DNA of 56,938 nucleotides, taken from an uncultured Eubacteriales bacterium (GTDB lineage Bacteria > Bacillota > Clostridia > Christensenellales > Aristaeellaceae). The stretch lies in the NCBI GenBank assembly GCA_902785105.1, contig CACZXF010000024.1, forward strand, positions 1 through 56,938. Reading direction: 5' to 3'. This document shows, one piece after another, positions 1,765 to 53,187 of the stretch (position 1 is the stretch's first letter; each line of letters starts with the position of its first letter). The notes beneath the pieces were generated by a model, which did no database searches, was not told the origin of the DNA, and saw nothing but the letters and a program-made list of their open reading frames with translations. The position numbers and the translations under genes are program-made.

Positions 1765-2875
1765 GCCTGGCACGCTGACGATTACGAAGGGCACTGCCGT
1801 GGTCACTGCGCCGAAGGCCCTGGAGCTGACCTATAACGGCCGGGAACAGGAGTTGGTCGAGGCGGGCGAGACCACCCTCGGCACGCTGGTTTACAGCCTG
1901 ACCAAAGAGGGCGAATATTCCGAGAATATTCCGGTCGGTACGAATGTGGATAGTTATACTGTCTGGTATAAGGTGGAGGATGGTGATAACTATGATGGCG
2001 TCGAACCGCGGAGCGTCATAGTGAATATCCAACCCTGCCCCGTGACGGTGACTGCGGACTACAAGACGAAGGTCTATGATAACGATGCCAGCACCGACCC
2101 TGAGCTGACGTGTACCGTGAAAGGCATCGTTGAAGGCGAAGCGCTCACTGGCTGCACGCCGAGACGCGTGGAAGGCCAGAACGTGGGCAATTATGTCATC
2201 ACCGTGGAGATAAACGGTGAGAATCCGAACTACACGGTGACCGTGGAGAATGGCACGTTTGCAATCACGCCGAAGGACATTAAGGTGACTGCGGACGACA
2301 AGACGAAGGTCTATGACAACAACGCGGAAACCGACCCGGAGCTGACGGCGACGGTGACCGGCGCAGTAGAAGGCGAGGGGATCAGCTATACATTGAGCCC
2401 GGGACAGGACGTGGGCGAGTACGCGATCACGGTGACGGCGGGAGAGAACCCGAACTACACGGTGACCGTAGAATCCGGCATCTTCAAGATCACGCCGAAG
2501 GCCGTGACGGTTAAAGCAGAGGACAAGACGAAGGGCTACGACAACGACGATACCACCGATCCGGAGCTGACGGCGACGGTGACCGGCGCAGTAGAAGGCG
2601 AGGAGATCAGCTATACAGTGAGCCGCGAGACGGGACAGAACGTGGGCGAGTACGCGATCACGGTGACGGCGGGAGAGAATCCGAACTACACGGTGACCGT
2701 GGAGAATGGCACGTTTGCAATCACGCCGAAAGACATTAAGGTGACTGCGGACGACCAGACGAAGGTCTATGACAACAACGCGGAAACCGACCCGGAGCTG
2801 ACGGCGACGGTGACCGGCGCAGTAGAAGGCGAGGGGATCAGCTATACATTGAGCCCGAGTACGCGATCACGGTGA
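1715..2875 (+). pseudogene. Giant surface protein, frame-shifted MBG-repeat segment
   Basis: This stretch continues the MBG array in frame 2, while the parts before and after it are in frame 1. It has no start codon or ribosome site of its own (the ATG at 1688 is a shadow within the previous unit), so it is part of the same gene. It contains about four MBG units of 225-231 bases that are nearly identical at DNA level, for example the repeated block at 2341, 2566, 2797 and 3006. At about 2857 a 16-base deletion, relative to the sister unit at 2390-2420, returns the reading frame to frame 1. One unit (2390-2400) also lacks 6 bases in frame. The two frame-changing deletions (about 98 and 16 bases) add up to a multiple of three. 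Confidence 0.7.
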
Positions 2876-5800
2876 CGGCGGGAGAGAATCCGAACTACAC
2901 GGTGACCGTGGAACCCGGCACCTTTAAGATCACGCCGAAGGCCGTGACGGTTAAGGCAGACGACAAGTCGAAGGACTACGATAACGACGAAACCACCGAC
3001 CCGGAGCTGACGGCGACGGTGACCGGCGCAGTAGAAGGCGAGGAGATCAGCTATACATTGAGTCGCGAGGCGGGACAGGACGTGGGCGAGTACGCGATCA
3101 CGGTGACGGCGGGAGAAAACCCGAACTACACGGTGACCGTGGAGAACGGCACGTTTACCATCGCCCCGAAGGCGGTGACGGTGACGGCGATTGATGTGAG
3201 CAAGACTTACGGTGATCCGGACCCGGAGCTGACGGCGACGGTGGAAGGGCTTGTGGGTACGGATGAGATCGAGTACAGCCTGAGCCGTGCCGAGGGTGAC
3301 AAGCTGGGCAGCTATGACATTACCCCTGCTGGCGAAGCGGAACAGGGAAACTATATCATTACTTATATAAATGGCACGCTGACGGTGACCTGGCCCGAGG
3401 GGGACTTGGTGACGAAGGAGCTCACGGGGTTCAACGGGGACCTGGCGAGCTATAAGATCACTGTGAAGGGCGAGCCGCTGAACGAGGGCGAACCGCTGAC
3501 GCTGGTGGACACCTTCAGCGGGAATCAGGCCATCAACTATGCCAGCGTGGAGGTCGCGGGCACGGGGGATTTCAGTTACGATTTCAGCGGCAATACGGGC
3601 ACCTATGTGATTCCCGATGGCGTTGAGGTCATCATCACCTATACCACCCGCGTGAAGGGCAGTGTCGGAGAGACGGTGGACTTTGACAACACCGCCGTGC
3701 TGGGTGTCACGGAGAACGGGAGCTTTACCGCGGGCGATTCGGCGACGGTGGAGGCCTCCAAAACGCTCTCTCCCACCGGCTCCGACATCCACGGGCAGGA
3801 CGGCGTTTACACCATCGATTTGTTCGCCTACGCCCAGGGACACATGGAGCGGGGCCTGGAGGGCGCCAAATTCCGCCTGCTGGATTCCAACATGCGGCCC
3901 ATGAGCTATAAGGCCGGGGAGTCCGCCGGACAGATCATCACCTTTGAGACGGGCGCGGACGGCTATGTCACCATCGCGCTGAACGAGGCCGACCACGGGC
4001 TGGCGATCCGGAAGAACACCGTCTATTACCTCGAGATGGTCACCGCGCCTTATGAGGAGATCGACGGCGGGCAGAATATCTACTACCAGAAGGACAACAC
4101 CTTCTACAGCTTCATGATCACGGATACCCCGAATTATGAATATGGCGGGGTCTACAGCTATGTCAACGGGGACGTGCTGAAGGTGCGCTGCTATCCGGTG
4201 AGCCGGGGCGTCAACATCACCAAGCGCTTCAGCGGCAACTATCAACTGACCGACGAACAGAAGAAGGCCATCGTGTTCATCCTCCAGAAGGAGGCGCTGG
4301 ACACCGCGACCGGCTGGGTGGACGTGGAGAGCCACACCTATGCCGACTTTACCTATGGCTCCATGAACTTCAGCACCGGTCGCGAGGGCGGCACGGAGCT
4401 GGAGGACAACGCCACCTACCGCGTGATCGAGAAAAACGCACTGCCGGAGGCGCTGGAAGGGCAGGTTTCGGTGAATACCACCTATACCGTGGCCTATCAG
4501 AAGGGCGGCGAACCGGTGGAGGACGTCACCAATGAATTCTTCGTGGACCCGGATGACAAGCTGGCATACAGCTATGATCTCACCTTCACCAACCAGTATG
4601 TGGACAACCGGCTGACCCTCATCAAGATCGACGCCGATACCGGCGACGCGCTGCCGGGGGCAGTGTTCGCGGTCTACGCGGCGGCGGACGACGCGGAACC
4701 CATAAAAACCTATACCACCGGCGACGACGGCACGGCTGCCATTCGCCGGGGCGACGAGGGGGCGGAGTATGCCGCCGATACCCTCTATTACGTCGTGGAG
4801 ACCCAGGCCCCGGAGGGCTGGCTCCTGCCCGACGCGCCGGAGAAGGTCTACTTCTACTTCTCCGAAAACGGCAGCGCGGCCCCGGCGGGCCCGGCGGCGG
4901 TGGATCTGTCCACCTCCTTTGACACGGTGACCCTGACCAACCGCAGCGATAAGGTCAGCGTGCCCGTGACGGTGGTCTGGGGCGTCAATGGCGACGAGGC
5001 CTGGCCGGAGGGCGTGGACCACCTGGTCATCGGGCTGTATAAGTCCGTGGACGGCGGGGAGCCCGTGGCGGTGCTGAACGATCAGGACGAGCCGAGAACG
5101 GTCACACTGAATAAGACGAAGTATTACGACACCAGCTTTAAGAACCTCCCCGCCCGGGAGGACGGCAAGCCCGTGGTCTACTCCGTCGTGGAGGAACACA
5201 TCTACGATGGCGGCGGCGCGGACATCACCACGCAATACGCCAGGAGCAGCAGCGTCAGCGGCACCGGCTGGTATGTGGTCAACAACCAGGCGGCGACGAG
5301 CGTCACCGTCCGGAAGGAATGGTATGAAATCGAGGGCGACACGCCCATCGAGGACGCCGACGACAAGGCCGCCGTCACCTTCGACCTCTATCGCACCACG
5401 GCCGCGAGCGAAGCGACGGCCTTCACCCGCGCCGAGCTTCAGACGCTGCTGGGCGGCGCGACGCCTGTGCGCACGGGGCTGACCCTCGCCGCGCCGGACT
5501 GGTCCCTCACGGTGGACTCCCTGGAGATCGGGGATAAGCAGGGCAATCCCTACCATTATTATGTCCTGGAGCACACTCCGGACAATCAGGAGGACACCTA
5601 TGCCGTTGAGGCGGATACGCTGACCATCAAAAACCGGCAGACGCCCGTCACCGTCGTCATCACGGCGGCGGACGCCGAAAAGACCTACGGCGATGACGAC
5701 CCGACTTGGACCTTCACGGCGGAGGTCAAGCAGGAAGGCGCGTCTGTTGAGATCGGCGCTCCCGACACGTCGGACAACTGGCACGCCACGGTGACGGCTC

Positions 5801-8800
5801 CCAGCGGCGCGACCACCGATATCGCCTTCACCGTCGCCCGCGAAACCGGCGAGGACGTGGGCGGCTATGCCATCACCCCCTCCGGCGACGCGATCCAGAG
5901 CGACTACAGGGTGCTGTTTGGGGCGGGCACGCTGACCATCGACCGGGCGAACGTCACGGTCACCGCCGGGGCGGAAAAGACCTACGGCGAGGCAGACCCC
6001 GACCTGGTCACCGTCGAGGGCCTGATCGGCGATGACACCATCGTCTATACCGTCTCCCGCGAGGAGGGCCAGGATGTGGGCGAGTACCCCATCACCCTCA
6101 CGGGCGATGCGGTGCAGGGCAACTATAACGTGACCTACGTCCTCGCAGACGAAAATGACAAACCCTACGTATTCACCATCCGCAGGGCCACGGCCACAGT
6201 GAAGGCGGTGGACGCCGAAAAGCTGTATGGCGAGGACGACCCTGAATTTGAAGTGGAAATCGAGGGCCTCGTCAACGACGACCCGTCCACGGTCATCGGC
6301 TACGAGGTGACCCGCGCGGCGGGTGAGGACGTGGGCGATTATACCATCACCCCCGTCGTCGATGCGGTGCAGGGCAATTACAAGGTGAACGTGGCTGCCG
6401 GCACGCTGACCATAAAGCCCGCCGGGCTGACCGTGACGGTCCAGAACGCCGACAAGATCTATGGCGACGATGACCCCGAATGGGAGATCGAGATCAGCGG
6501 CCTCCAGCGGGGCGAGGAGGGCGGCGAGCTGGTCTCCACGCTGGACGAGGAGACGGGCAGTCGCACTTATACCTACTCCGTCACCGTGGGCGAGGAGACC
6601 CGGCAGCTGCTCGCCTTCTTGGTGGACCGCGCCTCCGGCGAGAATGTGGGCAATTATACCCTCACGCCCTCCGGTGAAGCGACGCAGGGCAACTACAGCG
6701 TGACCTATTCGACCGGGGGGACGCTGACCATCGAACGCGCGGAGCTGACGGTCATTCCCAACCGCGTGGTGAAGGCCGTGGGCATCACTGAGGACCCGCT
6801 GCTCACCGCCGAAATCGAGGGCTGGAAAAACGGCGACGACACCTGCAACGCCGCCTCCGCCGTGGGCGAGGACGGCACAATCACCTGGACCTATACCCGC
6901 GGCGATGACGGCGCGGCGCTGCTCACCTTCACCCTCAAGCGCGATCCCGGCGAGGAAGAGGGCGAATACCCGGTGGCGGCCAATGGCGCGCCGAACCAGT
7001 CGAACTACGTTATTTCCTACGAGTCCGGCACCTTCGCCATACTGTCCATACTGGATGTGGACGTGACCCAGCCCCTGACGGATTACGCGGACGCCAGCGC
7101 AAATCCTTCCTATTCCTATACCGCGACGCTGGATCTGACCGGCACGGGCCTGGCCGAATACAGCAAGAACGGCTTTGAGACCGTGAACGGCGTGCCCACC
7201 CTCAGCTTCACCCTCCCGGACGGGGATGGCGGGAAGCTGATGACCCTGAAGATCCCCGGCGGCGCGAAGCTCACCGTCACCCAGAACACCCAGGACAGTG
7301 AAAATCCCGATTACACCACCGCCATGCTCATCGACGGCGCGCCCTACGCCGATCCCGACGGCGCGCTGACCTACACCATCGACAGCGTGGACACCTACCA
7401 CGAGATCGCCTTCGCCCACGATCGCATCAGCCTGCCCGTATCGGCGCGGGCCGCCGTGGGCCAGACCGAGGAAGGCGCGACCATACTGTCCGGCCGCCAG
7501 GGGGCCATGGGCATCCCCAACGGCGTGGAGACCATTGACGTGGACTTCGCCGATGAGATGCACAGCAAGATCGGCTACGCGCTGCCCACCGATAAATACT
7601 ATCTCTACGACCACGCCTCCCTCTACACCACCGCCGGCGCGGCGATCGAGGGCGCGGCGGGCGTCACCGGCATACAGTACAGCCGGGAGACCGGAAAGTG
7701 GCAGTACCGCGTCGCCGACGGCGAGTTTGCCGAGGTCCCGGAGAACACCCAGCTGGTGCTGTTCTACCTGCCGAAATTCGTCTGCAAGATCGGCACAGTG
7801 AAGTTCTACAGCATCCGCGAGGCCGTGGAGTACGTGGAGGCGCACGACAAGACCGCGAAGATCGAGATGCTCATCGGCGATTACGCCATCCGTTCCGACA
7901 GGGACAAGGTGATCATCCCCGAGGACTGCGACATCACCATCACCACGGCGGAAACCGAATACGAGGGCACCGGCACGGCGGTCATCAGCCGCAGCCTCAA
8001 CCTCACCGGCGGCCACCTGTTTGACAACAAGGGCACGCTGAAATTCGACAACATCATACTGGACGGCAAGAACGTCTCCGCGAAGGACGCCATGGTGCTC
8101 AACGAGGCGGAGCTGACCGTCGATACGGCGGCCACTCTGCGCAACGCCAGCGGCGTCAACGGCGGCGCGATCTACGCGAAGACGGGCAACCTGACCGTGA
8201 ACGGCACGTTGTCCAATAACGCGGCCACCTATGGCGGCGCGGTGTACGTCAACGGCGGCGAGGTCGGGCTGGGCGGCAGTCTGTCCGGCAACACCGCCAC
8301 CACTGGCGGCGCGGTATACGTCAACGACGGCACTGTGAACGTCACTGCCACCGCCACAGGCAACAAGGCCACCAGCGGCGGCGCGATCTACATCCACAAG
8401 GGCGAGGTCGGCCTGGCCGGCACGCTCATCGAAAACGAGGCTGCCAGCGGCGGCGCGGTCTATCAGGCCGGCGGCACGCTGACGGCTGGCGGCAGCATAT
8501 CCCAAAACACCGCCACGGGCAACGGCGGCGCGATCTACCAGGCGGGCGGCACGCTGGACACTGTGGGCACACTCTCCGGCAACAAGGCGGCCAACGGCGG
8601 CGGCATCTACCGCGTGGGCGGCACCCTGACCGTGGGCGGCACCATTGAGAATAACACCGCCGTGACCAACGGCGGCGGCATCCATACCGTCGGCGGCACG
8701 CTGGATGTCAGCGCGACCCTCACCGGCAACGGCGCGGCCAACGGCGGCGCGATCTACATCAGCGGCGCGACGCTGAACCTCAACGGCGGCAGCATCTCCA

Positions 8801-11800
8801 GCAATACGGCCTCCGCCAACGGCGGCGCGGTCTGCGCGCTGAACACCGCCACCGTCATCGGCGGCGCGACACTCGACAACAATACGGCGACGGCCAACGG
8901 CGGCGCGTTCTACATGGAGGGCGGCAGCGTGACCCTCCAGGGCACGGGCAAGCTGAACGACAATAGCGCGGCCAACGGCGGCGGCATCTACGCCACCAGC
9001 GGCGCGATCAGCGTCACCGGCGGCGAGATCAAAAACAACGAGGCCGAAACCAGCGGCGGCGCGGTCTATGCCGCCAGCGCCACGGTGACGGTCGGGGGCG
9101 GCACGATCTCCGGGAACAAAGCCACCCAGGGCAACGGCGGCGCGATCTACGACAACAGCGGCGCGGTGACCATCAGCGCCGGTACGCTGTCCGGCAACAG
9201 CGCGGCCAACGGCAAGGGCGGCGCGGTCTACGCGGAAACCGGCACGGTGGGCTTTACCGGCGGCACCATCACCACCAACAGCGCGGTCAACGGCGCGGCG
9301 ATATTCGCCGGGTCGGGCATTGCCAATGTCTCCGCCTCCATCACCAGCAACACCGCCACTGGCGGCGGCGCGATCGGCGTCGGCAGCGCCTCTGCGCGGC
9401 TGTTCTTCAATGGCAACGCCCATGTCTATGACAACAAGTTTAACGGCGGGCAGAGAAACGTCTACCTCGACGTGGACTCCGAGCTGGTCATCAATGCCGT
9501 CAAGCTGAATTCCGGCAAGAAGATCGGCGTCTATGTCCCCGGCGATGTGGACGGCGACCAGGTGATCGCCCATGGCGATGTCACCGGCTATTTCGGCGCT
9601 TATACCAATACGGATAACCTTGGCTCGTTCAAAAATGACCGTTTCAGTGAACTGAGCGCCGCCTATGAGAACAACCGGCTATACTGGATCAATAATCTGA
9701 AATACGATATCTACTATCTGGCGAGCTACTCCGCCCAGTTCCCGCCGACGACAAACTACGCCGCGGAACCGAGCAAAAAAGTGTGCTCGGCCAAGAGCTA
9801 CGCGCCGAGAACGCGGGAAAGCAACATCTATGACCTCGTGATGGCCATGAAGCTGTACGAGACCCATAATACAGATTTTACCAACAATGTGGGGGCCAAC
9901 TATGCTTCCATGGCGGTCTATGCCTATACCTTCTCGGACAAGGCCATGAGCAACACCTTCGCCAACTATCTGCAAACCGTCCGCTGGGACAGCACGGCGC
10001 GGAAGTGGAAGTATTACAAGCAGGACGGCACCGAGGCCCCCGCCAACACCTCAAAGCTGGTGATCTTCTATTCCGCCCCGGCCTATCTCACCATCGTCAA
10101 CAACAACGCGAGCGGGCTGGCACTGAACATATCCGAGCTGACCGTGCTTAAAAAGGATGTCATGAACAACGGCCTCTACGGCTTCGTGACGGCGAAAAAC
10201 GGCGCGACGGCACAGACCCTCATGCCCATCCAGCCCGCCGATCTCCAGCTCGATGCCGGCGAATCCATCAAGCTGATGTTCCCCGGCGCGCAGGGCCAGA
10301 GCTTCGTATTGAAGGGCGAATTTACAGGCGAGGGCGCGTCTGGAAGCACCGGCATCGAATACACCTTCAACGGCGGCGCGAAGACGCCCCTGTCCGGCAC
10401 GACGGTGGACTTCACCAGCTTCAAGTTCAACACCAGCGATGACGCGGCGGAGCTGATCTTCGGCGACGATCTGCCCATCTGCAAGATCGGCGATGTGCCC
10501 TTCTCCACCCTCACAGCGGCCATGGACTACGCCAAGATCCAGAAGACCGCCACTGGCAACAACAAATATACCATCGAGATGCTGGTGGACTACCTGGTGC
10601 CCAAGGACGACGTGCTGGACATCCCGGCGGGTTATGACATCACCTTCACCACCGCCGACCGCAACGCGGAGACCCTGCCCTTCACCGGCAGCGGCACACG
10701 GGCCATCCTCAGCCGCGATACCGGCAATTCGGGCGCTTCCGTCAAGGCCAAGAGCAGCACGCTGACCGTGGACAACCTGGCCTTTGACGGCCGCTCCCTC
10801 ACCGCGAGCGGCGCGGGCGGCGCGATCAACACCGCTACCTGCGCCACGGTCACCATCAGGAACTGCCTGTTCAGCGGCTATCGGGCGGATCAGGGCGGTG
10901 CGGTCTATGTGGACAACACGGCGGCGGGCAGCAGCCTGACCGTGGAGGACTGCGAATTTTCCAACTGCCAGACCAACGCTTCCGTCGATAAGGCGGGCGG
11001 CGGCGGCATCTGGACCACGGCCAGAGAACTGTATGTCCGAAACTGTACCTTCGATTTCTGCGCCTGCCTCAAGGGCAAGGCTCAGGCTGGTTCCATATTC
11101 CACAACATCAAGAGCGGCTGGTCCAAGGATTCAAAAACGGTGATTTCGGACTGCAAGTTCAGCAACTCCTATTCGGTCGGCGGCTCCGGCGGCACGATCG
11201 AATCAGACGCCCTGGATGTTACGATATCAGATTGCGAGTTCCATGGCAGCTATACCAACAAGGACAAGGGCAACGGCGGAGCGATCAACGCCCTGGCCGG
11301 CGACTCGGGAAAACAGGATACCACGGGCTGGATCGGCACATACAACGGTGAATGTTGGCTCACAGTCAAAAATTGCCTGTTCGATGGATGCAGGGCCGCG
11401 AGCAACGGCAATGGCGGTGCGATCGTAAGCTCCATGTGGTATGTGACCATCGAGGATTGCAAATTCGTAAACAATCAGTCAAAATATGGCGGCGCGATCA
11501 GATTGACCAATAGTAACGCAAAATGGCTGCACATCAATGGCTGCACATTCGAAAACTGCTCCGCCACGGGCGAGGGCGGCGGCGTCAGCGCCGCGGTTCC
11601 GGAAATCAAGGTAGAGGCTTCCGAAGGCGGAACGTTCCTGGATGGCACAGAAAACGACGGCTCTACGCACTTCATCGATTGCATCGCAAATCGCGGCGGC
11701 GGCATCGACAACGCCAAGGACGACGGCACCGTGACCATGGAGAATGTCAACTTTACCCGCTGCGATGCGCGAACCAGCGGCGGCGGCGCGATATACACCC

Positions 11801-14800
11801 AGGCCAAAACATTGTCCATCACCGGCGACGCCAACACCTTCACCGACTGCACCGGCTGGGGCCCCGGCGGCGCGGTCTACCAGAACAGGAGCGTTACGGG
11901 CAGCAGCGTGACGCTGGAAAACTGCCAGTTCAGCGGCTGTAAGGCTGATAACGGCGGCAACGGCGGCGGCATGTACGCCAGCGCCGTCGATCTGACCATC
12001 TCCGGCGACGGGAACGGCTTCAGCGGCTGCACGGCAGCCAAGGCCGGCGGCGGCCTGTATCACGCGACGGCGGGCACCGATTCCATCGAGAACTGCGCCT
12101 TTGAAAACTGCACGGCCAGCGCCGAAACAGGCGGCGGTCTGTATACCGTTGCCCAGAGCCTGACCATCACGGGCGAAAACAGCAGATTCATCGGCTGCAC
12201 GGCCCAGACGGACGGCGGCGGCATCTATCATAACCGGAACGCGGAGGGCTCGTCCTTTACCTTCAGGGACGGCGTCTTTGACAAATGCACGGCCAACGGC
12301 AAAAACGGCGGCGCGATCTATACGCCCGCCAAATCGGTGACCCTCGCGGACTGCGAAATCAAGAACAGCACCGCAAAATCCCAGGGCGGCGGCGTCTACA
12401 TCAGTCCTAACACCGCCAGCTTCGAGGGCTGCACCATCACCGATAACTCTGTCACCAACAGCGACAGCAAGGGCGGCGGCGTCTATGTCGCCGGGGGCAC
12501 CACCACCTATAAGAACAGCACCGTCAGCGGCTGCCAGGCGGGCAACGGCGGCGGCTGGTACCAGAACAACGGCAACCTGTACATCCTCGGCGGCTCCATC
12601 AGCGGCAGCGCTACCAACGGCGGCGGCCTGTACATGAATGAAAGCAACACCAAGGTGTACCACTATGGCGGCATGATCAGCGGCACCGCCGCGGGCAACG
12701 GCGGCGGCGTCTACAAGAACGACGGCACCTATACCCTCGGCAATGGAACCTATGAGGAGGTCGCCTATACCGGGGCCCGCGTCGGCGAATTGACCGAGGG
12801 GGCTTATTCCGCCACGGCCAAAAACGGCGGCGGCATCTATCAGAATGGCGGTACCGTCAACCTGAACGCCGGTGCGGAAGTCGTCGGCGAGGCCAGCGGC
12901 AGCGGCGGCGGCATCTGGAACAAGAGCACCGTCAACCACAACGGCGGCTATGTGAACGGCACGGCGGCCAACGGCGGCGGCGTCTACCAGTCCGACACCT
13001 CGAACGGCAAATACAACTTCAACGGTGGCACGATCACCGGCACGGCCACGGCCAACGGCGGCGCGTTCTATCAGGCCGGCAATACCTTTGACATCAATAG
13101 CGGAGCCGTGCTGGGCGAGCGGACGGCGGGCGAAAACACCATCGCCAGCACAGCCGACGGCAATGGCGGCGCGCTGTACGTCGCGGCGGGTACCGCCACG
13201 CTGAAAACGGGCGGCTCCATCCTCGGCGCAGGCGCGGCCAACGGCGGCGGCGCGTATGTGGCGGGCGGCACCTTTACCTTCCAGGGCGGCAGCATGGTTC
13301 GCAACACTGCCGCGGAAAACGGCGGCGGCGTGTATGTGGCGGATGGCAAGTTCGAAATGAAAGACGGCGGCGCAGTCATCGGCGGCTCCGAGGCAAACGC
13401 CAATACCGCCAACATCGGCGCGGGCATCTTCGTGGCCGACGGCAAGAAGGCGACCTTTGATGATGGAACGGCCAAGACCCTGGAGATCAGCTATAACCAT
13501 GCCCGTACCGAGGGCGGCGGCATCGCCGTGGGCGGGCCCGGCGCTGTGTTGAGCTTCGCCAATGCGGTGACGGTCCGCCACAACACCATGGGCGCGGATA
13601 ATACCGAGTGCAACGTCTATCTGGATCAGGACTGCAACACGGTCATCCAGAATGGCGCGCTGAACGAGGCTGCCTACATCGGCGTCTATGCCTCCGACGC
13701 CCAGGACGAGGGCCACGGCCAGTCCGGCAAGCCCTTCGGCACCTATTCCAATGATTCGCACCTGAACGTCTACCGCAACGACCGCAGGCCCTACTATTAC
13801 GGCGTAAAGGGCAGCAACAATCTGGTCATATGGCCGAATTTCGTCTGCAAGATCACCGACGGCGAGGGCGGCCTCCTGTACAAGGACGCCAACGGCACAC
13901 CGGCAGTCTATGTGGAGCTGGAAAACATAGCCAACAGCAAAGATAACACCGCCGGGGCGTTCTGTGAGCTGAACAAGACTACGCCTTCACTGTATAAAAA
14001 GGGCGAGGACGGCGCGTACACCCTGTACACCGAAAACGAATATCAGGTTCAGATGCTGGCACCGAATTATGAAATGGGCAGTACCCGGCAGATCAAGCTG
14101 AACGAAAACGTCTCGTCGAAGCGGAAGATCACGCTGACCACGGCCTCCGCGACTCCGGATGAATGCGGCTTCTTCTATACCGGCGATCCCAGATTCAATG
14201 CGACCATCAAGCGCACCGTCGATACCTACAGCCTGATCTACGTCGAAAAGCTCTGGGAGCTCACCCTGCGCAGCATCACCCTTGACGGCGACAATCATAA
14301 GGCGACGGAGAACGGCGGCCTGCTGCGCCTGGTGGGCAGCGGCTCCGCCATACTCGATGAGGGCGCGATCCTCCAGAACATCGGCACCTCCGGCAAGGAT
14401 GGCGGCGCGGTGTACATTACTGATGACGCGAGCGCCTTCACCATGAAGAACGGCAGCAGGATCACCGGCTGCGGCACCGGCACCGCCAATGGTGGCGCGG
14501 TGTGCCTCAATAAAGGCACTTTCACCATGAACGGCGGCGCCATCACCGGCTGCTCGGCGGCCAACGGCGGCGGCGTCTACATGAACAACAGCGCGAAGTT
14601 CGACATGAACGGCGGTGAGATCACAGGAAACAATGCTACCAGTACCGGCGGTGGTATCGCCCATAACAAAGACAAAGTCCCGGAGATAACCTTCTCCGGC
14701 CTGTGCACCGTGACGGGTAACACCCTCAACAGCTCGACGCGTTGCAACGTCCAACTTGCCCGAGCCACCTATGACATCATCAAAGCCAATGGCCTGGACA

Positions 14801-17800
14801 GCCGTTCCGAGATTGGCATTTATACCGATGGGCAGGAAACCGCGACGGGTTCTATCTACTACAATCACGGCATGCCCGGGAAACCCTTCGGTACTTGGTT
14901 GATTCAGGACGACAAACTCTTCGTCTTCGTCAACGATCGCAATACCAATCTGCGCGGATTCCAGAGTGCCAACGAAACTGATACAAGGATATTCTGGGAA
15001 TATCATCCGCTGCTCACTGTGACCAAAAACGTCAGCAGCGACTTGACATATGACCAGAAAACGGCAGAATTTACATTCCAGGTACAACTGCCTGCCGATC
15101 GGTTTACAAAAAATAGCACCAAGTATGGTGATATGACCTTTAACAATAACGGTCTGGCTATAGTTAAACTTAAGGCCGGAGGCTCCGCAACCGCAGTCCT
15201 TCCGGATACCTTTCACATGGTTGCCTATGAGGTGACCGAGGTTCTGTCTGATTCTCAGAAAGTGGACTATACGGCGACGGCGAAGCAGAATGGAACGGAT
15301 TGTTCCTTTACGGAGGAAAAGCCGCTGACTGTCTCTGGTACTCTGGGCGAAAACATCGGTACCGACAACTCTACCAGTCTTTCCGAGGTGGTATTTACCA
15401 ACACCCGCGAGACGGGTGATCTCACCATCAAAAAGGTGGTTCTCCCCGTCAAGCAGTCGGATCTGGAGGGCAGCTATGCCTTTACGCTGACATTGCCCGA
15501 CGATCCCATCACCAAGACCTACGCCGTCACCTATGCGGACGCGGCAAACCATGAGACATCCGGCACGCTGAGCTTTGAGTCGGGTGTGGCTGATTTTACC
15601 CTTTCGCACGATCAGTCCATCACCATCCACGGCCTGCCCACCGACCTGGCCTATCAGGTGGAGGAGAACCTCACGGAGCGGCAGCAGTCCAGTATTCGCA
15701 CTCAGGTGCAGGTGGACGACGTGGATGTGGTCTCCGCCGCGGGAACGATGGGCAAGACCTCGAATGTGGTCTTTACGAACCGCTTCCTGGATATCGTCTG
15801 CAAGATCACCAACCGCAGCCGCGAGCTGCTCTACATCCGCGAGGCCAACGGCACCCTCTCGGAGGCCATATTCAGCCATCTCGAGGACGCCTTCGACCAG
15901 ATCAATTCCGGCAACCTCAGAACCGCCGGCAACGGCACCGTCTCCGGCACGCTGCGCATCGAAATGGTGGTGCCGGAATACGCCATGGAGCGGACGGCCA
16001 CGCTGAACAGCGGCAAGACCGTGATACTCTCCACCGCCCTGACGACCGACACCGACGCCTTCCCCTACAACAAGGGCGTGGACGACGGCAATGGCAATGT
16101 CTCCCTTGTCACCCGCGAATTTGACCAGGGCAGCATGCTCACGGTCAATGGCACGCTGACCGTGGATAAGATCACCCTGGACGGCGCGTCCAAAGCGGAG
16201 ACGCCCATCACGGCTGAGGCGGACGGCGGCATCATCAATGTGGCAAGCGGCGTGAGGCTCACCCTCAACAGCGCCGCGAAGCTGCAAAATTCCTCGGTCA
16301 CCGGCAATGGCGGCGCGATCCGCCTGGCCCCCGGCGCGTCCCTGACCATGGGCGGCGCCATCGAGAACTGCTCCGCCGTGTCGGGCGGCGGCGTGTATGC
16401 CGAAGCGGGCTTTAAGAACATCACCACCACCGGCAGCATCGCGGGCTGTGCGGCCACCGACGGCAATGGCGGCGCGATCTTCGCCGCCTCCGGCGCCGGG
16501 GCCAGCGTGAACCTCAACGCGGGTACCCGCCTGACCGGCAACCGCGCCAGCGCCGATGGCGGCGCGGTCTGGTCCGGGGCCAATGTGGTCCTCAGGGGCG
16601 CGGTCGGCGGCGCAGAAACCGGTGAAGGCAACACCGCGGGCGGCAACGGCGGCGGCATCTGCCTGGGTGAAAACGCCACCTTCAACATGTATACCGGCAG
16701 CCTCATCGCCGGCAACACGGCGGTCAATGGCGGCGGCCTGTACGCGCAGCACACCACCCGCGTTGAAAACGGCACACTCAGCGGCAATACAGCCACCGGA
16801 CAGGGCGGCGCGATCTACGCGGCGGAAGGCGCTGTGGTGACCCTCGCAAAGCTCTCCACCCTCGCGGACAACAGTGCCGAACAGGGCGGCGCGGTGTACA
16901 ACGCGGGCAGTCTCACGTTGAACGACGCCAGCATAACCGGCAACACCGCCACCCAGGGCGGCGCGGTGTACGACGCCGGCAGTTTCACCCAGAGCGGCGG
17001 CAGCATGACCGGCAACACCGCCACGGAAAAGGGCGGCGCGGTCTACGTCGCCGAGGGCAAGCGGTTCACCATGACCGGCGGCAGCGTCAACGGCGGCAAC
17101 CAGTCCCCCGAGGGCGCGATCTCCACCGGCAGCGGCGCGGTGCTGGCCTTCTCCGGCAACAGCGTCGTCACCGGCAACACCGGCAGCGACGGCGCGACCC
17201 CCATGAACGTCTACCTCGGCTATGACAGCAACGCCATCATCACTACCGGCGGCCTGGGCAGCGGCGCGAACATCGGCGTCTATGTGGCTGACGGCGAGCC
17301 GGAGGACCCGCAGACTGAGGATGCCGTGGACAATCCCATCTATGTCGACCACGGCATCGCCACCAAGAACTTCGCCACCTATACCGGCACCAGCATCGGC
17401 AGCGCACGCCTGGCCCAATTCGTCAACGACCGGGACAATACGCTCCACGGCATGAGCGGCGGCGGGGATCTCATCGCCTGGTCCGGCAAGGGCATCCAAT
17501 TGAAGGTGCAGAAGGCCGGCACGACCACCACTGTCAGCGGCGTCGCCTTCAGGCTGACCAACAGCGCGGGCACCCAGGTCTGGTCCGGCACCAGCAATGC
17601 CAGCGGCATCGTGGAGATCCCCTGGGGCGGCGACGAAAAGCAGAACGGCAGGGAGGTCCACTTCGTCTGGAAGAGCGGCTATACCCTCTATGAGACCGCC
17701 GCCAGCGGCGACACCGTCCGCCCGGCGGGCCAGTGGACCCTGACCATCGGTCGGGACAATGCGGTGATCTGGACGACCGTTCCCTCCGAGACGCCCAACG

Positions 17801-20800
17801 TCAACCGCACCATCGCCATCGGCACCGGAAATGCCCGGTATCTCGGCGATACCTTCGACCTCTACAACGATGTGAAGCCCAAAGTGACCTACATCTCCCA
17901 GGGCGCGACCCTGCGGACGGACACCGTCGGCTTTACCACTACCGATGTCTACAGGAACTATACCGTTGACATCCCGAACCCCACGGCGAACAGTCGCGTC
18001 TTCCGCTGCTGGGCCACCAAGCCCGAAAGGCCGGAGAATGGAGAAGGCTATTACGAATACAGTCGGAACGATGTGATCCACTTCTATCGCGGCGGCGATT
18101 CCGACACTGACGCCCAGGGCATCTCGAAGGGCGATATGACCCTCTACGCCCAGTGGGAAGAGGTGGTCTGCAAGATCACGGACCGCGACGGCAAGCTGCT
18201 GTACGTGGGCGGCGCGCCCGCCGTCTACGGCACCCTCGAGGCCGGCTTTGAGGCTTACAACACCGTGCCCGTGTTCTACTATCAGAACGGCAGCAGGGCC
18301 ACCGCCCGAAGGATCGAGATGCTGGTGGGCGAATACACGCTGAACAACCCGGTCACGCTGAATCGCGGCAAGACCGCCATGCTCACCACCGCGCCTTCGA
18401 CGGATAAGGACGGCTACCCCTATATCGGTGAAAACGGTCCCATCAGCGTCATCACCCGCGGCGCGGAATGCGCGGACAAAAGCCTGATCACCGACATCGG
18501 CGCTCTGACGCTGATGAACATCACCCTGGACGGCGGCAGCAGGGAAGTCACCTGCGACGGCGGCCTGGTGAACGTCGCCCAAAACGCGGCGACCCTCACC
18601 GTCACCACCGGCGCGACCCTCCGCAATGCCGTCACCACCCGCAGCGGCGGCGCGGTCTACGTGGTGGGCAACGCCTCCATGAGCATGACCGGCGGCAGCA
18701 TCACCGGCAATACCGGCGATAACGGCGCGGTCTGCCTGGCAGAAAATGCGGCCATGACCATGAGCGGCGGCAGCATCACCGGCAATACCGGCGACCACGG
18801 CGCGGTCTACGTGGCAGACAAAGCCCGCATGACCATGAGCGGCGGCAGCATTACCGGCAATACCGGCGACCACGGCGCGATCAGCGTCGGCGGCGACGGG
18901 GCCCGCCTCACCTTCTCCGGAAACGCACAGGTGAAGGACAACACCAGGGCGGACAAGACGACCGCCTGCAACGTCTATCTGGATCAGGACACCAACGCCG
19001 TCATCAATTCCCCCGGCCTGGGCGCGAACGCCTGGATCGGCGTGTATGTGCCCACCCTGAATAAGGACGATCAGACGCCCTATTCCACCCGCGGCGACAA
19101 CCTCTGCGATTTCGGCACCTACACCGGCGTGGTGAACCTGGACCACTTCCACAACGACATCAACGCCCTCACCGGCATAGCGCGCACGGATGACAAGCGC
19201 ATCGTCTGGCTGAAGCTCGTGCCCACCACCGTGACCAAGGAGCTGGTGGACCTCTACGGCGCAACCAACCGCGCCTTCACCATGAGCGCCGCCTTCGCCG
19301 GAAAGGACCAGAGCTATACCTACCAGTGGTCCAACGGCACCCAGAGCATCACCCTCAAAGAGGGCGATTCCCAGTCCAAAACCATTCAGAATGCCAGCGC
19401 CGCAACGGATAGCAATGGCAGGGCCACCCTCGGTAGCGTCGTGTTCAACCTCCCCGTCGGCCTCCCCCTCACCCTCGCGGAGACCGCCGCCGACCTGGAC
19501 TACTACACCACCGCCATCACCGGGGATTCCAGCCTCACCAAGGAGTTGAATATATCCGGCACCACTGCGACGTTTACAATCAAAGAGGACAGCACCAATG
19601 CTTCTGTCACAGTGACCAACACCCGCAAGACGGGCCAACTGAAGATTACGAAAGCTGTGACCAGCGTCCTTGAAAAGGACAAAGCAGCGGAGTTTACCTT
19701 TACGGTGAAATTGACCGGTTTGAGCAGTACGCCTAAAGAAAAGACTATTGATGGTGTCAAATTTGTAAATGGAGAAGCGCGGGTTACATTGAAGCTCGAT
19801 GGAAATCAATACGAATGCTCCAAGGTCATTAAAAACCTGCCCATCGGTGTGACCTATACCGTAACGGAGGATGTTTACAACGACTTTATTACGGATAAAC
19901 CTGACGGTGAGAGCGGCGTAATCAGTGCGTCAACCCCACAGGTAAAGTTCACCAATACGCGAAAGACGGGCGATTTGAAGGTCAGCAAGACCATGAAGAA
20001 TGGAACGCCGGCGGATAATGACGTGAGCTTTGTGTTTGAGGTGCGGCTGGAAGGACTTGATGATGGGAAAATCCCATTAACCTACAGGGCGACGATGTTT
20101 GATGGAAGCGAGGAAAGCGAAACTGAAACGACGTTCTATGCAGAAGGCAAAGCGTCTTTCCAGATGAAAGCCAACCAAAGCATCACTATCCATGGCTTGC
20201 CGAAGGGTGTTAGCTATACTGTTACTGAGGAGGCTGATTCTGACAATAAATATGTGATTGAATCCAATAAGGGATATACGGGTCAAATCAGCGAAAAGCT
20301 GAGTGAGGCAGTTTTCGTCAATAAACGCAACTCCTTCACGGTAAAATATGTTACCGATAAGGATAAGGGCACGATAGCTGGCGCGGATGCTGATGGAAAC
20401 ATAACCCGCAAAGTGGATTATCAGAAGGACACTCCGTTTTATCGGGAGGGAAAGGGCCCCGAAGTCACCGCAAAGTCGGGTTATCATTTCAAAGGCTGGG
20501 ACAAAACAATCGCGCCAAAGGTCACCGCTGATGTAACGTATGTGGCTCAGTATCAGAAAGTGGTGAACATTACCGCGGACAAGGCTACAAAAGTCTACGA
20601 CGGTACGCCGCTTACGCTGACAGAAGCTGATTATAAGAATGACCTGCCGGTGGGCGATAAGATTCAGGAGAGAACTATCATAATAAGTGGTTCTCAGACG
20701 GATGTCGGCACCAGCAATAGCGAGATTGATATCGAGAGAGTAAGGATTCTGAGAAACAATCTCGATGTTACCGATGAGTACTGGATTGTAGCGCCGCCTG

Positions 20801-50118: not shown

Positions 50119-50147
50119 TTGCACAATATGAGAAAATATGGTAAAAT
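50119..50147 (+). promoter_or_regulatory. Promoter of the TIR-rhomboid operon
   Basis: -35 TTGCAC (50119-50124), 17 bases, extended -10 TGGTAAAAT (-10 at 50142-50147). It is divergent from the Cys-rich gene promoter and about 50 bases upstream of the TIR start. Confidence 0.6.
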
Positions 50148-50197
50148 ATGTTTGTCTAAATTTGCGACATTATAATGAGAAGGGCACGAAAAGCGAT

Positions 50198-52321
50198 ATG
50201 AGCAATCATCCCAATAACGGCGTCCGGGAATGCGATATTTTCATCAGCTATCGCAGAAATGGCGGCGACATGACCGCGCTGCATGTCTATGAATCGTTGA
50301 AGGCCCGGGGCTACAATGTCTTTTATGACCTTGAAGTGCTGCGTTCCGGAAAGTTCAACAAGGCGCTGCTGCAATCCATACAGTCCTGCAAGGATTTCGT
50401 GCTGATACTCTCTCCCCATGCCCTGGATCGCTGTGAAGATGAGGGAGACTGGGTGCGCATGGAGATCCGCGAGGCCCTGCGCGGCGGGAAGAACATCGTG
50501 CCCATCATCATGAAGGGCTTTGATTTTCCCGAAAATCTGCCGGAGGACATCGAAGAGCTGCGCTATCAGAACGGCCTGACCTCCACCACCGAATACTTCG
50601 AGGCCAGCATCGACCGGCTGTGTGAGCGCTATCTCTACTCCAAGCCCACGGCGGCAAAGCGGGCAAAGAAGCTGGTTTTGCCGATCATCGCCGTTGTGGC
50701 CGTATTGGCCCTGGGCGTTGTCGGCTGGAACCTGTCGAACGGCGCGTTCAGGCGGAACACAGCGCCTGAACTGACCGAAGCCCCGACGCCCGAAATCACG
50801 GTGGTGCCTACCGCCGCGCCAACCGAGGCGCCGACACCCGAGCCGACCACAGCGCCGACACCCGAAATCACGGCCACGCCCACTGCCGCGCCAACCGATA
50901 CACCGACGCCCGATCCGACCGCCACTCCTACGGAAGCGCCGACCTCAACGCCGTCCCCCGCCCCGACGGCCGTCGCCGCGGAGCCAGTGACCGGGGAGAT
51001 CGCGGATAGCTGGGATGAGATTCTCGCGGCCATCGACGACGGCACGGCGCGGGAGCGCTATGCCGTGGGCGCCTGGAAGCCCCTCGACATGGGTCAGTTT
51101 GGCACTGTGAATATGCAGCTTGCGGGCTTTGAACTGGATACCCGCGCCGATGCCAAGAGCATGGCGGAGACGACTTGGATCGCCAGGGAGCTTCTCCCGG
51201 AGGGGCACAGAATGAATCCTGTTTATGATGGTTCAATAGGAACCGGCATAGTCGGCGGGTGGGGAATCTGCGAATTGCGCCATTGGTTAAATGAAACGGT
51301 ACTGCCTGCCATTCCCGATGACATCAGGGATAGTATTGTTGTTGTAAAAAAGCGGCAGAACAGCAAGGATTCATTGCTGGATGATACGCTTCAAACGACA
51401 GAGGACAGCCTGTGGATTCCTGACTATAATGAGGTGTTTGGCAAAAACTCGCTATATTTCAGCTTGTTTTCAAATGAACCGGCCAACCGGATTAAAGAAC
51501 GCAATGGCACTGCCGCGAGATGGTGGCTGCGCTCCATTTATGATATAAAAAATGTTTGCACCGTCAACAGCTATGGCAATACAGGCTATAGCGGCCCATC
51601 CGCCGTTTCCGGCGGAGTCCTGCTGGGCTTTTGCCTGGGCAAAGACGAGAGTGAGAAGCCTGCGGTGCTACAGGAGGGAGAGATCAGCGACAGCTGGGAA
51701 GAGATCATCGCGGCCATCGCCGACGGCACGGCACAACAGCGCTATGCCGTTGGGGCTTACAAGCCGCTCAGCTTTGGCCAGTTCGGCACCATCAACATGC
51801 AGCTTGCCGGCTTTGACCTCGACACCCGCGCCGACGGCAGCGGCAAGGCTGCGACGACGTGGATCGCCATGGAGCTGCTGCCGGGTACGCAAAGCATGAA
51901 TCCGGAGTATGACGGCGCCGTGGGGACCGGCATGATCGGCGGCTGGGAGAAGACCCAGCTCAGACAATACCTGAATACCACGGTGATGCTGACCATTCCC
52001 TGGGAGATTCGCTCGAAGATGGTCGAAGTGGAAAAGACCCAGCCCGGCTATGACGCTTCGGAAGCCCGCGTGGATCAGACCACGGCGGATCGGCTGTGGG
52101 TCCCCAGCTATGACGAGGTATTTGGCGCGGATTCGCGGTATTTCGAGCTGTTCCGGGACGAGCCCGGGCGGCGGGTCAGGGAAAAGGAGGGCAAGCCGGT
52201 CTGGTGGTGGCTGCGTTCCGCTCACGATGGCAGTCAGGCCGACTTCGTCAATCTCTACGGCAATCCCAAATGGGACTATGCCCAGAACCCCGGCAACATC
52301 GTCGTGTGCTTCTGCTTATGA
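50198..52321 (+). CDS. TIR-domain transmembrane protein with two DUF6273-like ectodomains
   Basis: 707 residues. Residues 10-145 are a TIR domain: CDIFISYRRNGGDMTA, VFYDLEVLRSGKFN, FVLILSPHALDRC and WVRMEIREAL, with Trp85 and the putative catalytic Glu89 in WxxxE, the position used by NAD+-cleaving TIRs. One membrane helix covers 159-177 (LVLPIIAVVAVLALGVVGW), preceded by KRAKK, so the TIR is inside and the C-terminus outside. A Thr/Pro stalk (about 187-262) leads to two tandem repeats (about 265-480 and 485-707), each starting (I)xDSW(D/E)EI and containing WWLRS, as in DUF6273/C-type-lectin-like folds. The start at 50198 is the only in-frame ATG after the promoter with AGGG upstream. A rhomboid protease gene follows after 34 bases. 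A signalling or defence receptor is the attractive reading; no ligand or enzymatic product is shown by the sequence. Confidence 0.85.
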   Translation: MSNHPNNGVRECDIFISYRRNGGDMTALHVYESLKARGYNVFYDLEVLRSGKFNKALLQSIQSCKDFVLILSPHALDRCEDEGDWVRMEIREALRGGKNIVPIIMKGFDFPENLPEDIEELRYQNGLTSTTEYFEASIDRLCERYLYSKPTAAKRAKKLVLPIIAVVAVLALGVVGWNLSNGAFRRNTAPELTEAPTPEITVVPTAAPTEAPTPEPTTAPTPEITATPTAAPTDTPTPDPTATPTEAPTSTPSPAPTAVAAEPVTGEIADSWDEILAAIDDGTARERYAVGAWKPLDMGQFGTVNMQLAGFELDTRADAKSMAETTWIARELLPEGHRMNPVYDGSIGTGIVGGWGICELRHWLNETVLPAIPDDIRDSIVVVKKRQNSKDSLLDDTLQTTEDSLWIPDYNEVFGKNSLYFSLFSNEPANRIKERNGTAARWWLRSIYDIKNVCTVNSYGNTGYSGPSAVSGGVLLGFCLGKDESEKPAVLQEGEISDSWEEIIAAIADGTAQQRYAVGAYKPLSFGQFGTINMQLAGFDLDTRADGSGKAATTWIAMELLPGTQSMNPEYDGAVGTGMIGGWEKTQLRQYLNTTVMLTIPWEIRSKMVEVEKTQPGYDASEARVDQTTADRLWVPSYDEVFGADSRYFELFRDEPGRRVREKEGKPVWWWLRSAHDGSQADFVNLYGNPKWDYAQNPGNIVVCFCL

Positions 52322-52355
52322 TCCTGCCTGCGATCTCTGAAGGGGAGGAATGAAT

Positions 52356-52943
52356 ATGAACGGCAAAAAGGTGAAGATCAGCTTCAATTCGCCGGTGGTG
52401 CTGGGCTTCATGCTGATCTGCGTGGCGGCGCAGGTGGCGAATATTTTGACGGGTGGCGCTGCGAACCGGCTGCTGTTCAGCGTGTACCGTTCCCGGCTGA
52501 CGGACCCGCTGACCTATGTGCGCTGCGTCGGCCACATCTTCGGCCACGCGGACTGGAACCACCTGATCGGCAATATGATGTACATATTGATACTGGGGCC
52601 GATGCTGGAGGAGAAGTACGGCTCGGCGGACCTGATGATCGTGATGCTGGTGACGGCCATCGTCACGGGCATCGTGAATATGATATTCTTCCCGAACGTG
52701 ATGCTGCTGGGGGCCAGCGGCGTGGTGTTCGCGTTTATACTGCTGTCCTCCATCACCGCCACCGACGGGGAGAGCATCCCCGTGACCTTCATACTCGTGG
52801 CGCTGATCTACCTGGGCCAGCAGATCTACGAGGGGCTGTTCGTCGCCGACAACATCTCCCAGCTCGGCCACATCCTCGGCGGCGCGGTGGGCTCCGCCCT
52901 GGGCTTCACCATGAATCGGTTGCTGGTGCAAAACAGGCGTTAG
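52356..52943 (+). CDS. Rhomboid family intramembrane serine protease
   Basis: 195 residues with six predicted helices. The catalytic Ser121 is in GASG and the catalytic His172 in LGHILGG; the HxxxxHLIGNM segment (60-74) is the usual helix-2 motif. Rhomboids cut membrane helices of other proteins within the bilayer. The ATG at 52356 is preferred over 52350 because GGGGAGG is 7 bases upstream. It lies 34 bases after the TIR receptor gene with no terminator between, so they should be co-transcribed; the receptor helix is a possible substrate. A strong terminator follows. Confidence 0.9.
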   Translation: MNGKKVKISFNSPVVLGFMLICVAAQVANILTGGAANRLLFSVYRSRLTDPLTYVRCVGHIFGHADWNHLIGNMMYILILGPMLEEKYGSADLMIVMLVTAIVTGIVNMIFFPNVMLLGASGVVFAFILLSSITATDGESIPVTFILVALIYLGQQIYEGLFVADNISQLGHILGGAVGSALGFTMNRLLVQNRR

Positions 52944-52980
52944 AGGGAATTTCTATGAAACATTCCTTTTGATACCACAG

Positions 52981-53011
52981 AAAAAGAGCTGTCGTTGTGA
53001 CAGCTCTTTTT
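52981..53011. terminator. Terminator of the TIR-rhomboid operon
   Basis: A perfect AAAAAGAGCTGTC / GACAGCTCTTTTT stem with a 5-base loop (52981-53011). Confidence 0.85.
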
Positions 53012-53015
53012 CCAT

Positions 53016-53066
53016 GCCCTGGGATTATTCACCATAAACCGGCTGTTGGCGCAAAACAGGCGATAG
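53016..53066 (+). pseudogene. 3' remnant of a second rhomboid gene
   Basis: This segment reads ALGLFTINRLLAQNRR and stop, closely matching the last residues of the intact rhomboid gene (ALGFTMNRLLVQNRR). The differences are codon-level changes typical of a paralogue. A matching terminator (53143-53173) follows. The simplest history is a tandem pair of rhomboid genes of which the second was lost apart from its tail. Confidence 0.65.
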
Positions 53067-53067
53067 A

Positions 53068-53105
53068 GGGGCGGGCGGCGAAACGCCGCCCCTACAGGCG
53101 TTTGA
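53068..53105. mobile_element. Half core-1 repeat inserted in the rhomboid remnant
   Basis: Compared with the intact gene's 3' flank (TAGAGGGAATTTCTATGAAA at 52941-52960), the remnant's flank carries about 38 extra bases (a GGCGGCGAAACGCCGCC hairpin and CCTACAGG) between TAGAGG and GGGTATTTTTTATGAAA. The pair shows an empty and a filled site side by side. Confidence 0.75.
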
Positions 53106-53142
53106 GGGTATTTTTTATGAAACATTCCTGTTGATACCAAAG

Positions 53143-53173
53143 AAAAAGAGCTGTCGCTATGACAGCTCTTTTT
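53143..53173. terminator. Terminator shared with the flavin reductase gene
   Basis: A second AAAAAGAGCTGTC / GACAGCTCTTTTT hairpin, duplicated from 52981. It lies 15 bases past the stop of the minus-strand reductase and has A/T runs on both sides. Confidence 0.8.
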
Positions 53174-53187
53174 CTTTGGTCAGGGGA

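Follow-up and report, generated by a model that had tools for sequence, protein, structure and literature searches.

A family of bacterial membrane TIR receptors with exchangeable ectodomains, and a RyR-bearing channel-type protein as its recurrent partner

The sequence analysed here, referred to as the window, is a stretch of 56,938 nucleotides from an uncultured Eubacteriales bacterium of the gut (GTDB family Aristaeellaceae; assembly GCA_902785105.1, contig CACZXF010000024.1). It encodes a protein with a SARM1-like TIR domain, a membrane helix and a large ectodomain, which belongs to a family of TIR receptors. The partner that recurs with these receptors in related bacteria is a channel-type protein bearing a RyR domain, as found in the ryanodine receptors of animals, and not the rhomboid protease that is encoded beside the window gene. 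On balance we consider it probable that the two proteins form a modular system, in which TIR receptors clustered by a ligand would make an ADP-ribose-type signal that acts on the RyR-domain channel. A pairing of the receptor with the rhomboid, put forward in the original prediction from the window, is set right ahead of any bench work.

The features of the receptor gene and its surroundings are collected in Table 1. The longest open reading frame containing the TIR domain runs from 50138 to 52321 on the forward strand, and the numbering used here follows the start at 50198, which yields E89 for the glutamate of the WxxxE motif. The start of 50119 given previously precedes the first start codon of this frame. 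A Pfam scan at E ≤ 1e-3 identified TIR and DUF6273 domains alone, with TIR_2 at residues 14–141 (E 1.2e-14) and DUF6273 in two stretches (E 6.8e-28), within which there is a 286-nt repeat of 75% identity. The DUF6273 fold is C-type-lectin-like, according to PMC10743442. The scan found no ARM and no SAM domain, and no STING or SAVED domain fused to the TIR; the PADLOC SAVED_TIR model matches the protein in its TIR part only. There is one hydrophobic segment. Because its N-terminal flank is rich in Lys and Arg, the protein is predicted to have the TIR inside and the C-terminus outside (N-in/C-out, type II). The original prediction had read a TIR domain with WxxxE, one membrane helix, a PT-rich stalk and two repeated DUF6273 domains from the sequence, and this reading stands in all its parts. 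A DGR-diversified ectodomain was considered and rejected for want of a reverse transcriptase, the genome's own assembly (92% complete) having no RVT_1 match.

Table 1. Features of the receptor gene and its downstream neighbour; positions are those of the window.
Feature	Position	Strand	Basis
TIR-TM-stalk-DUF6273x2 receptor gene, 707 aa	50198..52321	+	ORF and Pfam
SARM1-like TIR domain	50237..50620	+	Pfam TIR_2 match; PDB matches
WxxxE motif, W85 to E89, with putative NADase catalytic Glu	50450..50464	+	motif read
Single membrane helix, residues 155-184, with Lys/Arg-rich N-terminal flank	50660..50749	+	hydrophobic segment
Pro/Thr-rich low-complexity stalk	50756..50992	+	sequence; contains repeat D2
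DUF6273 (C-type-lectin-like) ectodomain unit a	50996..51649	+	Pfam, repeat
DUF6273 ectodomain unit b	51680..52318	+	Pfam, repeat
Gene of the rhomboid protease, with 52350 as a second possible start; probably an incidental neighbour outside the system	52356..52943	+	ORF, Pfam, co-occurrence
Terminator-like palindrome with T-run, 3' of rhomboid	52974..53012	+	read from sequence; lies in one arm of inverted repeat I1

When the window TIR was compared with the PDB, all 19 matches at E ≤ 1e-3 were to SARM1 or TIR-1 (best E 2.8e-31), the next match following at E 0.0046. These closest solved relatives bear the name NAD+ hydrolase. The defence models of PADLOC and NCBIfam gave TIR matches that were weak or below the cut-off: those to the PADLOC ThsB models are weak only, and ThcB4 scored 42.6 bits where its cut-off is 220. 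Membership of a known defence system was rejected for this reason, as was carriage by phages, since a search of a phage collection with the TIR domain gave no match.

A scan of bacterial genomes yielded 343 relatives of the TIR, of which the best 80 were taken, corresponding to 79 loci. From these loci 83 proteins were aligned with the window protein and two paralogues from its own genome, 86 in all; the alignment omits L078 and L082, which are cut short, and two extra TIR-like ORFs, in L125 and L140. Within this set, whose loci come from the best 80 of 343, the motif DWxxxE is present in every protein and a membrane helix directly follows the TIR in 81, five having no clear helix there. The N-terminal side of the helix is the more positively charged in 72 of the 81. 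The ectodomains are varied. Pfam matches, which overlap, are TIR_2 (86 proteins), LRR_8 (16), LRR_5 (14), DUF285 (13), LRR_4 (11), PDZ_6 (5), RCC1_2 (4), MORN (2), Peripla_BP_4 (1) and DUF6273 (1), and many ectodomains have no Pfam match. The single DUF6273-TIR fusion among the 86 is the window protein itself. In this family a TIR-TM unit is joined to interchangeable outside parts (LRR, MORN, RCC1, PDZ, DUF6273 and others).

Different ectodomains occur within one genome as well. The bacterium that carries the window has three TIR receptors, the two paralogues lying in tandem on another contig (C59) and having a TIR-TM-BspA-type organisation with LRR motifs in the ectodomain. Their presence bears out, as regards architecture, the original description of the window protein as a membrane TIR receptor analogous to Toll-like receptors with inverted topology. 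The TIR-coding DNA of the window gene is 75% identical to that of one paralogue, and the similarity ends in the membrane helix, beyond which a 51-nt match in the stalk is all that remains. To judge by this boundary, one ectodomain has apparently been exchanged for another.

The rhomboid gene that follows the receptor gene is intact (PF01694, E 7.1e-21), with Ser121 in a GASG motif and His172, as originally described; counted from the alternative start these are Ser123 and His174. It begins 34 bases past the TIR stop codon, or 28–34 bp depending on the choice of start, and on the strength of this spacing and the shared strand the two genes plausibly form one operon. The original prediction went on to propose that the rhomboid cuts the membrane helix of the receptor, so freeing or activating the TIR. 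The intactness of both genes and their closeness agree with this proposal, but the distribution of the two genes makes it very improbable. Of the 60 genomes searched, 23 have a match to this rhomboid, counting the own genome and one (G081) where the match is weak; within the genus it is present in 19 of 28 members. A TIR profile found no strong match in 16 of the 22 other rhomboid-bearing genomes, two of which (G009 and G022) have a weak match on a contig other than that of the rhomboid. In the remaining six (G004, G007, G008, G017, G025 and G030) the TIR again lies on a different contig. Presence and absence are unrelated across the 28 genomes of the genus, where six have both genes, two the TIR only, 13 the rhomboid only and seven neither (Fisher p=1.0); with a loose TIR threshold the same table reads 8/2/11/7 (p=0.42).

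The converse search gave a similar picture. Among 93 TIR loci (961 kb, 10 of the loci being duplicates) a rhomboid profile found a rhomboid of the window type in one, L088. There the rhomboid, of the same family as that of the window, precedes a TIR receptor by 706 bp, which speaks for cleavage, but it overlaps the end of an HlyD-type gene upstream of it. In the rhomboid loci of relatives the gene directly upstream is TerD-like in 4 of 22 and LarC-like in 9 of 22, these names coming from reading of the sequences and not from a search. When the TIR profile was run over the 1.5 kb on either side of the relatives' rhomboids it gave no match, and it gave none for the positive control either, namely the window's own rhomboid with 1.5-kb flanks (L051), whose TIR domain is 1.7 kb upstream. 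The predicted type II topology of the receptor also argues against cleavage: the known substrates of rhomboids are mostly type I or N-out helices. On co-occurrence and linkage together a TIR-rhomboid system was rejected as very improbable, the neighbourhood being hardly conserved at all beyond its own genome, and the adjoining rhomboid is probably an incidental neighbour.

The remaining surroundings of the receptor gene are unexceptional. Those neighbours in the window that have a Pfam match (Spo0A, shikimate kinase, YunG, a transport permease, an FAD/FMN-binding protein and a GAPDH-like protein) are ordinary housekeeping genes. Beside the receptor gene are Spo0A, YunG, a 131-aa protein without a Pfam match, the rhomboid and the FAD/FMN protein, and there is no ThsA effector among these neighbours.

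It is in the TIR loci of other genomes that a partner becomes apparent. Clustering of neighbouring proteins produced one family that is present in 14 of the 79 TIR loci (best 80 of 343), often directly after the TIR gene. Pfam identifies its members as Ion_trans_2 plus RyR in L075 and L079, and as RyR alone in L106 and L118. With a RyR profile the count rises to 21 of the 79 loci (798 kb), whereas the profile matched none of the 53 loci that served as controls, 23 with a rhomboid and 30 with DUF6273 (174 kb). In 15 of the 21 the RyR gene is no more than 120 bp away from a TIR ORF, which in 14 cases is a TIR of the family; in L140 the gene adjoins a more distant TIR ORF instead. In a tree of the TIR domains the RyR-adjacent rows are spread across several clades, in Bacillota, Bacteroidota and Actinomycetota, and most rows in the clustering count belonged to no group.

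The two genes also tend to occur in the same genomes, and because genomes of one genus are not independent the p values that follow, which ignore kinship, overstate the association. Within the genus, a strong TIR match (profile A2, E<1e-60) and RyR are found in the identical 8 of 28 genomes (p=3.2e-7, kinship ignored), the same eight that the first TIR query found. At E ≤ 1e-3 eight genomes have both, two TIR only, none RyR only and 18 neither (p=1.4e-5, kinship ignored); G009 and G022 have a weak TIR match at the loose threshold and no RyR. For 100 relatives, own genome included, the corresponding figures (both/TIR only/RyR only/neither) are 10/1/10/79 with the strict threshold (p=1.1e-7) and 14/6/6/74 with the loose one (p=2e-8), again with kinship ignored. 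One of these genomes, G063, has a strong TIR and no RyR, and 10 of the 20 RyR genomes have no strong TIR. For 391 genomes of the class the loose TIR threshold (E ≤ 1e-3) gives 10/20/17/344 (p=5e-6) and the strict one (E<1e-20) gives 4/4/23/360 (p=1e-3), kinship being ignored here too. In eight of the ten genomes that have both a strong TIR and RyR, the two genes share a contig, the exceptions being the own genome and G030.

Not every receptor has the partner nearby, since a RyR gene is absent from the stretch examined in 58 of the 79 loci (best 80 of 343). Where both flanks are near 6 kb (39 loci) RyR was found in 14 and not in 25, and it was found in 7 of the 40 loci with shorter flanks. Contig ends are therefore not the explanation of the missing genes. 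These loci would suit a different reading, in which the TIR merely depletes NAD+ when a ligand is sensed, in the manner of SARM1-like suicide, the channel being separate or auxiliary; so would the name NAD+ hydrolase borne by its closest solved relatives. This reading is nevertheless unlikely in view of the tight co-occurrence with the RyR channel among close relatives and the operon-like adjacency of TIR and RyR, which is seen repeatedly.

The channel-type protein of the own genome is encoded on contig C41. It has 497 residues, a TVGYGD pore filter and a C-terminal RyR domain (Ion_trans_2 and RyR in Pfam), and its gene overlaps that of a 613-aa partner. This is the only such channel in the genome, and it is unlinked to any of the three TIR genes. 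A profile of 12 channel-type relatives matches animal ryanodine receptors (E 1.2e-23) and the K+ channels KvAP and KcsA (E about 1e-12). AlphaFold was run for the channel of L077 and its partner of ~600 aa, with mean pLDDT values of 86.5 and 88.1. The best match of the channel model is GsuK (E 2.8e-7), then Slo1, and that of the partner model is also GsuK (E 8.5e-5), then TrkA/MthK; TM-scores of the full models against GsuK are modest (0.3–0.4). The C41 protein is thus a predicted K+ channel with a filter, RCK-like domains and a RyR domain, the RCK-like fold being modelled on the L077 relative only.

Clues to its ligand come from the phage RyR protein RyDEP, which according to a 2026 preprint binds and cleaves 2' and 3'cADPR, with H75, W78, H100 and D117 as the ligand residues (PMC13232231). 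The own channel reproduces the spacing of these residues exactly (H-x2-W, with H at +25 and D at +42), and so do 8 of the 12 channel-type relatives and 5 of the 8 small RyR proteins tested. Of the 12 aligned relatives, L105, L106 and L118 have an insertion, no exact spacing and no K+ filter, and L094 has Asn in place of Asp. Among the small proteins, the second H is replaced by N in L102 and L123, and L134 departs from the pattern. The spacing is absent from the own 613-aa partner. Conservation of these residues makes the C41 channel a putative target for gating by an ADP-ribose-type nucleotide. In a search of plasmids, four records match the RyR or pore pieces of the channel only.

We can now set out how a modular TIR-RyR system might work. 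A SARM1-like TIR would lie in the cytosol, joined by one membrane helix to a stalk that bears an exchangeable ectodomain outside, made up of two C-type-lectin-like DUF6273 units in the window gene and of LRRs in the paralogues. A ligand would bring receptors together, and the assembled TIRs would use NAD+ to make ADP-ribose or an isomer of cyclic ADP-ribose, a conversion that we infer from the SARM1 homology and the invariant Glu. The product would bind the RyR domain of the K+-channel-type partner with its RCK-like domains, and the altered K+ flux would halt the cell, kill it or trigger a response. In the own genome, the channel and RCK-like partner on C41 would serve three receptors. It is quite possible, and we suggest it tentatively, that this amounts to a full bacterial counterpart of an animal pathway, leading from an outside-sensing, inverted Toll-like receptor with a SARM1-type TIR through a cADPR-type messenger to a RyR-domain K+ channel shared by interchangeable sensors.

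Such a mechanism can also be reconciled with a role outside immunity, which would concern its purpose only: the receptors might sense glycans, surface proteins or competitors in the gut, and control K+ homeostasis or some other response. The ectodomains are of surface or solute-binding type (LRR_5/DUF285, one Peripla_BP_4, one DUF6273), the identified window neighbours are housekeeping genes, and the channel has no match among the PADLOC models at E ≤ 0.01, all of which would suit this role. Against it, the patchy presence (8 of 28 genus members) and the swapping of sensors resemble the behaviour of conflict genes, and TIR and RyR proteins elsewhere are linked to phage conflict (PMC13232231). 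We regard a non-immune role as possible though rather unlikely.

The proposed TIR-RyR system has something in common with several known ones. It shares with animal SARM1 and TIR-1 the TIR sequence (E 2.8e-31) and the WxxxE glutamate. SARM1 has ARM and SAM domains and no outside sensor, whereas in the window family the protein continues through a membrane helix into a domain outside the cell. Toll-like receptors likewise combine an extracellular sensor (LRR in some members of our family), one membrane helix and a cytosolic TIR; the window family differs in that its TIR is N-terminal and of catalytic type, so that the domain order is reversed, and in that its LRRs are of bacterial types, the window ectodomain itself being DUF6273 and not LRR. 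As in Thoeris, a separate effector would respond to an ADP-ribose-type signal that the TIR presumably makes, but there is no ThsA-like neighbour, the sensor is anchored in the membrane and the effector is of RyR-RCK channel type. The own channel has the same ligand-contact residues as the RyR R12 domain and phage RyDEP (PMC13232231); here, in contrast, the RyR domain belongs to one protein together with RCK-like domains and the pore of a bacterial K+ channel. Finally, it is to the RCK channels GsuK, Slo1, TrkA and MthK that the models of the L077 channel and its partner come closest in fold; the proteins described here differ from those channels by an added C-terminal RyR or RyR-like domain and by the linkage to TIR receptors.

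Some of these elements have been described. TIR-derived ADP-ribose signals with separate effectors are already known (Thoeris; PMC13232231). A 2020 survey reports that it found no bacterial SARM1 homologues (PMC7075850), and in a 2026 preprint SARM1 falls inside a bacterial lineage (PMC13142454). Neither bacterial membrane TIR-LRR receptors nor a TIR with a RyR-domain channel is named in the titles and abstract openings searched, a body of text that lies mostly outside the subscription literature. Burroughs et al. (NAR 2015) are said to have possibly predicted TIR/RyR links. If our reading is right, TIR receptors with exchangeable sensors, LRRs among them, exist on the surface of bacterial cells together with a RyR-domain ion-channel effector in the same bacteria, and Toll-like sensing, a SARM1-type NADase and signalling from ADPR to RyR would act jointly in them. 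This would offer a simple and testable system for the origin of SARM1-type TIRs, and the same system would address the response of RyR domains to cyclic ADP-ribose.

Other variants of the partner were noticed in the TIR loci, namely a small-RyR/550-aa form and a 690-aa form in Lachnospiraceae. An EHxRW motif near the C-terminus of a membrane protein was seen by eye, and left uncounted, in L103, L104, L117, L119, L122 and L135.

Besides the window, the only neighbourhood found in which a TIR gene and a rhomboid gene stand together is that of locus L088. By eye, the ectodomain of its TIR receptor resembles a sugar-binding protein. Peripla_BP_4 is present in one of the 86 aligned TIR family proteins that were scanned.

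The own genome has a single match to the ryanodine-receptor-type (RyR) domain PF02026, which is the channel of contig C41. The product of the gene overlapping this channel has a relative in locus L077, which is predicted by AlphaFold modelling to be an RCK-type protein. In the related genome G004, a channel gene lies downstream of a shortened TIR frame, and this TIR gene looks broken or mis-assembled. For the four-gene set of L106 and L109, tested in L106, the ~550-aa protein gave no Pfam match, and the RyR membrane protein is without a K+ filter. Near the Arcobacter plasmid trio there is an integrase, together with a type I restriction gene.

The own genome encodes further TIR proteins, of which the tandem pair on contig C59 is the nearest counterpart here of a bacterial Toll-like receptor. 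By eye, the fourth TIR protein, on contig C99, has an apparent membrane helix, and YD-like units recur many times in its sequence.

Features of the window, its own genome and other loci (L, locus handle; TM, membrane helix)
Locus	Positions	Strand	Feature	Remark
Window	2842-9573 and 13987-19809	-	Two very long ORFs	2243 and 1940 aa
L185 (C41)	113-1954 and 1951-3444	-	RyR-domain K+ channel and overlapping 613-aa gene	
L005 (C59)	4893-7157 and 7426-9489	-	Two tandem TIR-TM-stalk proteins	BspA/DUF285-type LRR motifs
L006 (C99)	4216-7140	+	Fourth TIR protein, 974 aa	TIR_2 match weaker than in the other TIR proteins of this genome
L088	4653-5231 and 5938-7560		Rhomboid and TIR receptor	Rhomboid upstream, same family as window rhomboid
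L041 / L078 (G004)	5841-6740 / 5857-6756		TIR reading frame	Stops within stalk
L107 (Oscillospiraceae MAG)	5953-7614		TIR-TM protein, internalin-type LRRs	LRRs assigned from motif count and inspection by eye
L106, L109	2469-7711, 202-4786		Four-gene set	TIR receptor, ~100-aa RyR protein, ~550-aa protein, RyR membrane protein
L140 (Bacteroidales contig)	434-2707		RyR gene adjoining second, more distant TIR ORF	TIR of that ORF C-terminal
L186 (Arcobacter plasmid)	3958-7681		NAD-binding, RyR-domain and DUF4062 proteins	

Within the window, at 52905-53185, the rhomboid gene's 3' end and its terminator-like palindrome recur in part downstream (repeats D3 and D5). A short interspersed repeat ending GCCGCCCCTACAG occurs in 17 copies (9 on the + strand and 8 on the - strand, with at most 2 mismatches), two of which flank the TIR-rhomboid pair.
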